From NCBI GenBank assembly GCA_004322005.1, contig SCRF01000106.1, positions 1 through 64,000 of the forward strand: a DNA stretch of 64,000 nucleotides. Reading direction: 5' to 3'. This stretch comes from Rhodanobacter sp. (lineage in GTDB: Bacteria; Pseudomonadota; Gammaproteobacteria; Xanthomonadales; Rhodanobacteraceae). How positions within the stretch are numbered: position 1 is the stretch's first letter; each line of letters starts with the position of its first letter. Below are positions 2,964 to 24,220 of this stretch, one piece after another. The translations under genes were made by a program, and so were the position numbers. Below the pieces are notes generated by a model. It was not told where the DNA came from. It saw only the letters and a program-made list of their open reading frames with translations, and did not search any database.

Positions 2964-3157
2964 CCGGCGTTTACTGCGATGTGCGCCAGCACACTCTTAC
3001 ATTTGCCTTGTTCCTAAATACGGCCCCGGGTCGGCTTCACATCGGCTGTTGTGCATGTCCGCCACGTGCGGAAAGCCTCGAGGCCATGTAGCTCTCCCAC
3101 CTGATCCATCTTGGATCAAGGTCGTTTGGTGGGCAGCGGCATCGCGGTTTACGCCAC
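2964..3157 (+). ncRNA. ssrS: 6S RNA (SsrS)
   Basis: Global regulatory RNA that mimics an open promoter and sequesters sigma70-RNA polymerase in stationary phase. The closing stem is visible: GGCGT..CUGCGAUG (2966-2981) pairs with CAUCGCGG..ACGCC (3140-3155) around a 3x3 internal loop. The 3' half holds a GATCCA-TCT-TGGATC hairpin (about 3101-3115) and GGGCAGCGGCATC (3131-3143), which resembles the conserved 3' segment of enterobacterial 6S RNA. Length (about 190) and position between zapA and the 5-formyl-THF cyclo-ligase gene match the family. Ends are good to a few bases. The leading strand of the stem follows a -10-like box. Confidence 0.85.
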
Positions 3158-21897: not shown

Positions 21898-22587
21898 TCA
21901 CGGCTTCCACCGGTAGCCCACGCCGTGCACGGTCTCGATCGCGTCGAACTCCGGCGCCACCGCGATGAACTTCTTGCGGATGCGCTTGATGTGCGAGGTG
22001 ATGGTGGCGTCGTCGACCACCAGCTCCGCCTCGCTCATCAACTGGTCGCGGCTTTTCACGTGGCCGGGAAAGCGGATCAGCGTGTGCACCATCCAGAATT
22101 CGGTGACGGTGAGCGGCACTTCCGCGTCGTTCCAGCTGATCCGCATGCGCTCGGATTCGAGCTTGAGCGGGCCATGCTCGATCACCGTTTCGCTGGATGT
22201 CGGCGCGGTCAGCGAGGCGATGCGGCGGAACAGCGCGGCGATCCGCGCGGCCAGCTGGTGCAGACTGGTGTCCTTGCTGAGGTAGTCGTCGGCGCCCAGC
22301 CGCAGACCGGAAATCACGTCGAAATCCGAATCGCGCGCGGTAAGGAAAATGATCGGCAGCGTGGGCGATTTCGCGCGCAGCTCGCGGCACAGGTCGAAAC
22401 CGCCTTCCGGCTCGTCGCCGAGACCGATGTCGATGATCACCAGTTCCGGCAGGCGCATCGCGAACGCGGCGGACGCCTGCTGCCGCGAGCCGTAGCCGCG
22501 CGCGTCATAACCAAAGCGGTTCAGCGCCTCGACGTAGTTGGCGCGGATCAGCGGTTCGTCTTCGACAATCGCAATGCTGCGGCCCAT
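21898..22587 (-). CDS. Response regulator, PdsR-like (OmpR family)
   Basis: 229 residues. Receiver domain with acidic pocket EDEP, phospho-acceptor Asp in LVIIDIGLG (about residue 53), Thr in IIFLTARDSD and Lys in DDYLSKD. A C-terminal winged helix follows (LTVTEFWMVHTLIRFPGHVKSRDQLM..DATITSHIKRIRKKF..IETVHGVGYRWKP). Length and linker match the regulator I recall as TIGR03787 of the proteobacterial dedicated sortase system. First gene of the three-gene operon, transcribed away from a 39-aa membrane peptide gene. Confidence 0.86.
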   Translation of the reverse strand: MGRSIAIVEDEPLIRANYVEALNRFGYDARGYGSRQQASAAFAMRLPELVIIDIGLGDEPEGGFDLCRELRAKSPTLPIIFLTARDSDFDVISGLRLGADDYLSKDTSLHQLAARIAALFRRIASLTAPTSSETVIEHGPLKLESERMRISWNDAEVPLTVTEFWMVHTLIRFPGHVKSRDQLMSEAELVVDDATITSHIKRIRKKFIAVAPEFDAIETVHGVGYRWKP

Positions 22588-22763: not shown

Positions 22764-22883
22764 ATGCCGAAAGTCGAACCCGCCGCACATGATCCGAACG
22801 CCGAATTGCGCAGCTTCGAGCCCTTGCGGGTCACCCTGGCGCTGGGCGCCCTGCTGCTCGGCCTGATTCTGGGCCTGCATTGA
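22764..22883 (+). CDS. 39-aa single-pass membrane peptide
   Basis: Small open frame with a TGGAGC box 8 bases upstream. The product has an acidic soluble N-terminus (MPKVEPAAHDPNAELRSFEP) and a hydrophobic C-terminal helix (LRVTLALGALLLGLILGLH), predicted N-in/C-out or tail-anchored. Divergent from the PdsR-like gene, with an intrinsic terminator about 200 bases downstream (23103). No family recognised. The strong amphipathic split and good ribosome-binding site argue for a real gene, though length alone makes this uncertain. Confidence 0.6.
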   Translation: MPKVEPAAHDPNAELRSFEPLRVTLALGALLLGLILGLH

Positions 22884-23107: not shown

Positions 23108-23179
23108 GTAGGAGCGCACCCTGTGCGCGATGGCTTTGCCACATCACGCTAAAGCATCGCGCACAGGGTGCGCTTCTAC
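23108..23179. repeat. Paired GTAGGAGCGC palindromic repeat
   Basis: Two inverted arms with GCGATGG/AGCATCGC inner ends. Sits immediately after the terminator at 23103. Confidence 0.9.
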
Positions 23180-23232: not shown

Positions 23233-23261
23233 GGGAACCAAACCGGCCCGGCCCGGTCTAT
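23233..23261 (+). promoter_or_regulatory. Possible ECF/sigmaE-type promoter of the candidate RNA
   Basis: GGAACC (23234-23239), a 16-base spacer, then GTCTAT (23256-23261). This resembles the GGAAC-N16-GTCTA pattern of RpoE-like promoters, and transcription would begin 6 to 7 bases downstream, exactly at the first stem of the RNA at 23267. Confidence 0.45.
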
Positions 23262-23266
23262 GCTTG

Positions 23267-23419
23267 TGATTGGCTCGTTCCATTGCCGTGGAACCCGCCG
23301 GCACGGCCGCCGACCCTCCCTAGCGACGGTCGTGCCGGCGATGCCAATCAAATGGTGTTCTCTCACGTCATACGACTGACGTTTATCCCGGCGCAGCCAC
23401 TCAGTGCGCCGGGATTTTT
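23267..23419 (+). ncRNA. Candidate structured small RNA (about 150 nt)
   Basis: The outer stem TGATTGGC (23267-23274) pairs perfectly with GCCAATCA (23343-23350). Inside it are hairpins GTTCCA-loop-TGGAAC (23277-23294) and GCCGGCACG..CGTGCCGGC (23297-23339), giving a three-way junction. Then come a 6-bp hairpin ACGTCA-TACGAC-TGACGT (23365-23382) and an intrinsic terminator. No open frame fits and no downstream gene lies on this strand, so it is a free-standing RNA rather than a leader. I do not recognise an Rfam family. Confidence 0.55.
23386..23419 (+). terminator. Intrinsic terminator of the candidate small RNA
   Basis: TCCCGGCGCA-GCCACTCAG-TGCGCCGGGA (10-bp perfect stem) followed by TTTTT. 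Only the plus strand has the T tract. It lies 28 bases before the rpe stop, convergent with rpe. Confidence 0.85.
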
Positions 23420-23446
23420 GTGGGCGCATGCCGGCGATGCCGGGCC

Positions 23447-24115
23447 TCAGCCGATCGCCCGGCGCATCGCCTCGATCTCGACGCGGTAATCGCTGGCGTG
23501 GAAGATCGCCGAACCGGCGACGAAGGTGTCGGCGCCGGCGGCGGCAATCGCGCCGATGTTGTCCGCGGTGACGCCACCGTCGACCTCCAGCCGGATCGCC
23601 CGGCCGCTGTCGTCGATCAGCCGACGCACCCGGCGCAATTTTTCCAGCGCGCCGGGGATGAACTTCTGCCCGCCGAACCCGGGGTTGACCGACATGATCA
23701 GGATCAGGTCGAGCTTGTCCAGCACATAGTCCAGATAATCCAGCGGCGTGGCCGGGTTGAACACCAGCCCGGCCTGGCAGCCCGACTCGCGGATCAGTCC
23801 GAGCGTGCGGTCGATGTGCTCGCTGGCTTCCGGATGAAAGCTGATCAGGCTGGCGCCGGCCCGGGCGAAATCCGGCACGATGCGATCGACCGGCTTGACC
23901 ATCAGGTGCACGTCGATCGGCGCCACGATGCCGTAGTCGCGCAGCGACTTCAACACCATCGGGCCGATCGTGAGATTCGGCACGTAATGGTTGTCCATCA
24001 CGTCGAAATGCACCCAGTCGGCGCCGGCGGCCAGCGCGGCGGCCGTGTCATCGCCCAGCCGTGCGAAATCGGCGGCGAGGATGGACGGGGCGAGGATGGA
24101 GGCTTGCTTGGTCAT
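23447..24115 (-). CDS. rpe: Ribulose-phosphate 3-epimerase
   Basis: Metal-dependent TIM-barrel enzyme interconverting ribulose-5-P and xylulose-5-P in the pentose phosphate pathway. 222 residues beginning [15 protein letters not shown]. Metal and catalytic residues lie in [19 protein letters not shown] (Asp and His), HLMVKPVD and VDGGVT. The start at 24115 is the family start; the open frame extends upstream through a palindromic repeat. Complements rpiA at 4.6 kb. Confidence 0.97.
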
Positions 24116-24146: not shown

Positions 24147-24220
24147 GTAGGAGCGCACCCTGTGCGCGAATGCTTTCCGTTACCTGGCGAAGAGCATTCG
24201 CGCACAGGGTGCGCTCCTAC
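24147..24220. repeat. Paired GTAGGAGCGC palindromic repeat
   Basis: Inverted arms on either side of a CTTTCCGTTACCTGG spacer, between the djlA-like stop and the rpe start. Confidence 0.92.

Follow-up and report, generated by a model that had tools for sequence, protein, structure and literature searches.

A stand-alone gene beside rpe in Rhodanobacter very probably encodes a sigma-E-dependent, trans-acting small RNA (sRNA) whose sequence family is absent from Rfam, a conclusion drawn from the conserved structure of the RNA together with a promoter architecture common to rpoE and an fkpA-like gene. The window, by which we mean the whole 64,000-nucleotide stretch of DNA analysed, comes from a genome (G000) of a bacterium of soil type, 3.6 Mb in 136 contigs, 96.3% complete. 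The element is almost certainly a real structured RNA gene, its transcription is highly likely to depend on RpoE, and repression through pairing at ribosome-binding sites is the somewhat favoured mode of action, with any one named target deserving little credence at best. Taken whole, the picture of a stand-alone, sigma-E-transcribed sRNA gene whose product represses mRNAs in trans by pairing is likely. At the level of sequence, comparison backs the structure of the RNA as well as its promoter and terminator, and the locus is laid out as follows.

23234-23239 (+): -35 element GGAACC, from the sequence; GGAACCA in the homologue family
23256-23261 (+): -10 element GTCTAT, N16 after GGAACC; mostly GTCAGA in the family, also GTCTGA and GTCAGT
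23265-23419 (+): predicted sRNA of ~155 nt, from the fold; covariance-model match at 23259-23419
23267-23274 with 23343-23350 (+): outer helix P1, TGATTGGC with GCCAATCA, closing the three-way junction
23277-23282 with 23289-23294 (+): hairpin P2, GTTCCA with TGGAAC
23283-23292 (+): near-invariant UUGCCGUGGA in P2, a candidate seed, from alignments A1 and A3
23297-23305 with 23331-23339 (+): hairpin P3, GCCGGCACG with CGTGCCGGC, extended beyond 9 bp in the fold
23314-23321 (+): CCCTCCCT, carried by the P3 loop
23353-23367 (+): linker TGGTGTTCTCTCACG, a candidate anti-Shine-Dalgarno seed, predicted largely unpaired
23365-23370 with 23377-23382 (+): small hairpin P4, ACGTCA with TGACGT
23385-23419 (+): intrinsic terminator, a stem with T5; CCCGGCGCA (23387-23395) with TGCGCCGGG (to 23413)
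23447-24115 (-): rpe, ribulose-phosphate 3-epimerase of 222 aa, the convergent neighbour, from its ORF

The pairings, the terminator stem with T5 and the GGAACC-N16-GTCTAT pattern had all been named in the initial annotation and are present in the sequence as it described them. It had also placed the end of the RNA 28 bases from the stop codon of a convergent rpe, which agrees with the terminator end and with the rpe ORF ending at 23447; rpe itself is a TIGR01163 equivalog (308.2 bits against a cut-off of 212.6). Judging by promoter geometry alone, transcription would start at about 23265-23268, and an ATG-started frame seen by eye at 23260 begins ahead of that point. The covariance-model match within the window arises by construction, since the window's sequence is part of the model.

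Fold, covariation and distribution

The minimum-energy fold of 23260-23430 consists of the three-way junction, the small hairpin and the terminator, and reaches -83.8 kcal/mol as against -60.6 ± 4.16 in shuffles (z -5.58), none of 200 of which folds as well. Covariation, which the initial annotation had proposed as a check, was assessed on alignment A1 of 46 distinct sequences with a five-helix structure taken partly from an RNAalifold result. Paired cells make up 93.6% in A1 and 86.7% in shuffles, both-side changes occur in 27 of the 41 pairs (shuffled mean 13.2), and 163 cells carry such changes (48.0 in shuffles). All five covariation measures exceed 500 of 500 shuffles and every slid-partner version, a comparison in which relatedness is uncorrected and the structure, being derived from the A1 sequences themselves, has an advantage over the slides. 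Fold and covariation thus bear out the three-way junction and the terminator, and the search among homologues for stems broken without compensating changes leaves the sRNA reading standing.

The helices contribute unequally. Clearly compensatory changes occur in P1 (UA/CG, CG/UA), where 98.4% of cells are paired and five of the seven counted pairs changed on both sides, in P3 (11 of 12 pairs) and in the terminator (8 of 12 pairs; 94.4% of cells paired). P4 is paired in 95.1% of cells, its first pair passing from A-U to G-C in 2 of the 46 sequences, and reads GCGTC/GACGC in far homologues. For P2 the figure is 82.1%; its loop-adjacent pairs are almost invariant, and its outer two are unpaired in 14 and 17 of the 46 sequences. 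By a count made by eye, the outer helix is kept in the minimum-energy folds of 17 of the 19 far homologues (not in L110 and L116); P3 is lost in L112-L114, from the Dyella group g6, and its C-rich loop was seen, again by eye, in the majority of Rhodanobacter and in the Dyella group g8. Apart from the terminator and P4, conservation is highest in UUGCCGUGGA and in the linker (A/G)UGGU(GU)NUCCUC. The linker is unpaired in many far-homologue folds and is largely conserved across Dyella, Frateuria and Fulvimonas, reading GUGGACUCCUC or GUGGUCUCCUC in Frateuria and Dyella; the window's copy departs from the family consensus.

A protein-coding gene was rejected, in agreement with the initial annotation, because no reading frame is conserved among 50 homologues: their longest ORFs begin at differing places, and in 47 of the 50 the longest one runs off the end through the terminator.

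Homologues were sought with a BLAST query of 23262-23422 and with the covariance model, both of which exclude the promoter. Within the genus, BLAST located the element in 41 of 45 genomes; across the family, 83 of the 233 genomes gave matches at E 0.01, many of them short. The 51 genomes with the full locus were kept as loci, and the 32 whose matches were short were set aside. Run against 398 genomes sampled from the order, the model built from 46 sequences found a match in 76, 70 of them at E < 1e-7, all within one family and spread over 11 genera, which include, as we infer their names, Rhodanobacter, Dyella, Frateuria and Fulvimonas. The six weaker matches are in G033, G092, G141, G234, G435 and G463. 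That in G234 (L120), an order-level match, was discarded as spurious, the surrounding DNA having neither promoter nor rpe, and that in G435 is a 37-base part of the terminator; at the rpe flanks of G435 and G463 the RNA was not seen. Thirty more rpe flanks were inspected, drawn from a set of 36 genomes most of which had been picked for having no strong match, and the RNA appeared at three: clearly in G168, which BLAST had missed, and in diverged form in G017 (L327) and G092 (L326). It was not seen at the rpe flank of G175, a member of the genus, and went unrecognised in several genera of the family, such as g2, g4 and g17; in the incomplete assemblies of G178 and G183, rpe was not found. With all strong matches in one family and only three weak ones outside it, the RNA is, as judged from these matches, family-level in its distribution. 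The element occurs in a single copy in the G000 genome. At L040:2565-2711 (-), about 0.9 kb from the main copy of that locus, the model gives a weak second match (23.9 bits, E 2.5e-4).

The promoter and its probable link to sigma-E

Promoter counts cover 70 loci, 67 by script and three (L041, L105 and L117) read separately. All but one of them have GGAACCA as the -35 element, the exception (L116) having GGAACCT; GGAACC is never replaced by GGAACT, and GTC follows after 15 bases in 65 loci or 16 bases in four, missing only in L117; the window's own -10 element, GTCTAT, lies off the family consensus. This near-constant GGAACCA is unlike the GGAACTT of E. coli. Sigma-E elements have been given as GGAACTTTT and GTCAAA in the excerpted text of PMC1804206.

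The rpoE gene of G000, a TIGR02939 equivalog (314.8 bits against a cut-off of 236.15), is preceded by TGAACTT-N15-GTCTGA. Matches to it came from 44 genomes, and all 30 rpoE loci examined carry TGAACT-N15-GTC upstream, the base after TGAACT being T in 14, C in 13 and A in three, and the bases after GTC being TGA in 29 and AGA in one. Scanning G000 for GAACYW-N15/16-GTCWGA returned three places, namely rpoE, an fkpA-like gene and one site inside an open frame. A pattern scan of genome contigs gave at least 80 matches, many in unrelated organisms, which we took as chance because the pattern is loose. The fkpA-like product is an FKBP-type isomerase (Pfam FKBP_N and FKBP_C) with a start that by eye resembles a signal peptide, and its best NCBIfam match, PRK10902, falls below the cut-off. 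Its promoter (L318, G000:C17:23667; relatives L373-L392) reads (T/G)GAACCT-N15-GTC in all 20 relatives fetched, with TGAACCT in 16 and GGAACCT in four. FkpA belongs to the sigma-E regulon of E. coli. Since the fkpA-like promoter shares both form and spacing with that of the sRNA, GGAACC/GTC is a form already in use in this lineage at a plausible RpoE target. The RpoE-type promoter put forward in the initial annotation is accordingly conserved in 69 of 70 loci, with matching architecture at rpoE and at the fkpA-like gene.

The same sRNA might instead be driven by another ECF sigma factor with GGAACC/GTC specificity, in which case it would report a different stress. Another factor is possible because the sigma-70 region 2 family has 15 matching places in the G000 genome, and the absence of GGAACT from all sRNA promoters, set beside TGAACT at all 30 rpoE promoters examined, points the same way. 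The fkpA-like promoter, however, bridges the two forms, combining GAACCT with GTCTGA or GTCAGA in several relatives and keeping N15. No GGAAC/GTC at this spacing was found upstream of the 15 sigma genes, a weak argument, as the simple scan is equally blind to the TGAACT of rpoE itself. We consider a different ECF factor unlikely and retain RpoE as the probable driver.

Known RNAs, candidate seeds and targets

The Rfam scan suggested in the initial annotation returned no family of Rfam 15 at the gathering threshold for the sRNA, those below it being weak, and across the whole window it gave only one tRNA and 6S RNA (2968-3154 (+), 84.8 bits). The models of RybB and MicA, with which a likeness in logic and not in sequence had been proposed, do not figure among the matches to the sRNA at or below the gathering score, so no sequence relationship was found. 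A weak same-strand match to anti-hemB (RF02837; 20.7 bits, with E 0.0092 in a 271-base search) lies far below the gathering score of 49.5 and was taken as chance or terminator-level similarity. Literature searches on Rhodanobacter sRNAs and RpoE, Dyella noncoding RNA and Xanthomonas sRNAs returned no description of the RNA in the titles and abstract openings among the matches listed. By these comparisons the RNA very probably represents a new sequence family within the known class of sigma-E-dependent sRNAs.

MicA and RybB are assigned to the RpoE regulon in the excerpted text of PMC8103513; that of PMC1804206 describes flanking genes kept between species and a model in which sigma-E drives repression of omp mRNAs. 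The present RNA resembles them in standing alone between genes, in carrying a sigma-E-type promoter that is conserved, and in having neighbouring genes that are kept between species. It differs in length, RybB and MicA measuring ~70-80 nt and the family matches 108-180 nt, with the window's RNA about twice as long as theirs. Its 5' end, moreover, sits in a helix, unlike the free 5' seed of RybB and MicA. A further difference may lie in the targets, since in a limited test on outer-membrane barrels complementarity to 22 PF13505 start regions from 8 genomes did not go beyond shuffles. Four seed segments were tried on each region, one gene came from the window's genome, and the starts were chosen by script (that of L366 at least doubtful); the lowest p values among the 88 tests, 0.02, 0.02 and 0.04, are as expected by chance. 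The analogy with RybB and MicA therefore holds for an sRNA with an RpoE-type promoter, but its other half, silencing of outer-membrane protein mRNAs, is unsupported by these 22 genes.

Another RNA for comparison is sX13 of Xanthomonas, a well-studied sRNA of the order, described in the excerpted text of PMC3771888 as highly structured, located downstream of polA, composed of three stem-loops with C-rich loops and reported only from Xanthomonadaceae; its exposed segments are rich in C and may thereby pair with ribosome-binding sites rich in G. As far as that excerpt goes, both RNAs are highly structured, expose C-rich segments and are confined to one family. The present RNA differs from that description in lying beside rpe and not polA, in its three-way junction and ECF-type promoter, and in having, in place of the three stem-loops with 4C/5C loops of sX13, one C-rich loop (CCCTCCCT in the window), a UCUCCUC linker, P4 and the terminator.

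Exact complements of the seed (UCCACGGCAA / TCCACGGCAA) occur at 18 genome sites, as against 22 for the reversed control; one of the 18 is the sRNA gene itself, and none lies convincingly at a start codon. Exact CCACGGCAA sites number 105 in the genome and 110 for the reversed control. The RNA might act otherwise than by mRNA pairing, titrating a protein through its near-invariant UUGCCGUGGA hairpin, whose conservation exceeds what pairing alone needs and whose complement is not enriched in the genome. The linker, however, is about as conserved as UUGCCGUGGA and is unpaired in many far folds, as fits a pairing seed, and each RNA has just one such hairpin, unlike CsrA sponges, which carry more than one per RNA. 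Protein titration is accordingly improbable, and pairing with mRNAs remains the preferred mode of action.

Neighbours of fkpA gave one lead. In a 16-kb stretch, 11 ORFs were called, some of them doubtful; the seven families that had 8 loci or more were compared with three RNA segments, and only ppsA stood out, with a mean z of -1.73 for the linker. The gene is a PEP synthase equivalog in the relative G157. Ahead of its UUG start, GAGGAGACACC matches the linker as its complement at 11 positions, one of them G-U; together with UUGA it could form up to 15 pairs. Linker complementarity at the ppsA start (L393, L373-L412) is found in many Rhodanobacter genomes and is poor in the window's own, where the pair reaches only -13.3 to -14.9 kcal/mol. 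With the consensus linker, the ppsA start of G154 takes the top rank among 450 ORF-start windows, a set in which some ORFs are spurious. Across 35 cognate linker-ppsA pairs the mean energy, -18.96 against -18.56 for all pairings, is scarcely better than for swapped pairs; the cognate mean was reached by 192 of 10,000 permutations, or by 392 after collapse to 33 distinct pairs, with kinship uncorrected. Three of the 40 stretches fetched for this comparison held no ppsA start.

Where the linker core deviates, in 15 genomes, ppsA shows no clear compensation, and several genomes, the window's among them, have a broken or weakened pairing. G175, where no RNA was seen beside rpe, has no full ppsA complement, and some RNA-bearing genomes are without it likewise; G183, the incomplete assembly in which rpe was not found, has the full complement. 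The match at the ppsA ribosome-binding site, weak in the window's own genome, serves as a lead only. Were ppsA a true target, its ribosome-binding site in Frateuria and Dyella would be expected to read GAGGAGUCCAC or GAGGAGACCAC.

Genomic setting and biological meaning

An rpe orthologue adjoins the RNA in 50 of 51 near loci (L046 stops at a contig end) and in all 19 far loci (L101-L119), and a response regulator stands on the other flank in 43 of 51 near and 17 of 19 far loci, some loci being too short to include it. So constant a neighbour, present at 69 of 70 loci, could suggest that the element acts in cis on rpe, by antisense control or as a shared terminator. Yet the RNA is convergent and ends short of the rpe stop, its minus-strand hairpin has no subsequent T run, and across 69 loci the two lie anywhere between 5 and about 1,120 bases apart, with rpe 0.9-1.1 kb away in L044, L052, L119 and L106 and the RNA retained. 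This variable distance argues against a cis role, which we regard as very unlikely, and for action in trans. That a small coding gene, or else some repeat or mobile element, has been taken for an RNA gene is barely conceivable: REP-like repeats flank the locus on both sides (23108-23179 and 24147-24220), but the element is single-copy, sits at the same place across genera, has no conserved frame and shows compensatory changes.

The surroundings hold further features of their own. The REP-like repeat, GTAGGAGCGCACCCTGTGCGCGA, has 25 matches in the window at up to 3 mismatches (0.00 expected), mostly as inverted pairs about 50 bases apart. The response regulator beside the sRNA (21898-22587 (-)) scores above the cut-off of TIGR03787, the proteobacterial dedicated sortase system response regulator. 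Between it and the sRNA and rpe lies a 39-codon ORF (22764-22883 (+), MPKVEPAAHDPNAELRSFEPLRVTLALGALLLGLILGLH) with a C-terminal hydrophobic stretch and no Pfam match, present in 69 of the 101 loci examined for it (one additional row, L120, being spurious), among them L328, L333 and L336, where the sRNA was not seen.

On the preferred reading of a trans-acting sRNA, envelope stress would free RpoE, which would then transcribe the RNA. The RNA may pair in trans with mRNAs through the UUGCCGUGGA loop, the C-rich loop and above all the linker, (A/G)UGGU(GU)NUCCUC, whose anti-Shine-Dalgarno segment UCUCCUC could complement Shine-Dalgarno sequences. Such pairing would stop translation, and the target proteins would be lowered during envelope stress. 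In a more specific and rather unlikely version, the response to envelope stress would have as its RNA arm this one structured RNA next to rpe, and its action would fall on central carbon metabolism, in place of outer-membrane proteins or in addition to them, with the linker AUCAAUGGUGUUUCCUC pairing over up to 15 bp with the ribosome-binding site and UUG start of ppsA; if that were true, gluconeogenesis would be shut down under envelope stress.

Sigma-E-dependent sRNAs are best known in enterobacteria and Vibrio, and a case is reportedly found in Fusobacterium. The family described here, with 70 strong matches in 398 sampled genomes, is a candidate for Rfam; its promoter is defined, and its candidate seeds and the model of the family can be used to look for targets. 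If the reading is true, an envelope-stress RNA arm would exist in a separate bacterial family too, built on an unrelated RNA with another architecture.
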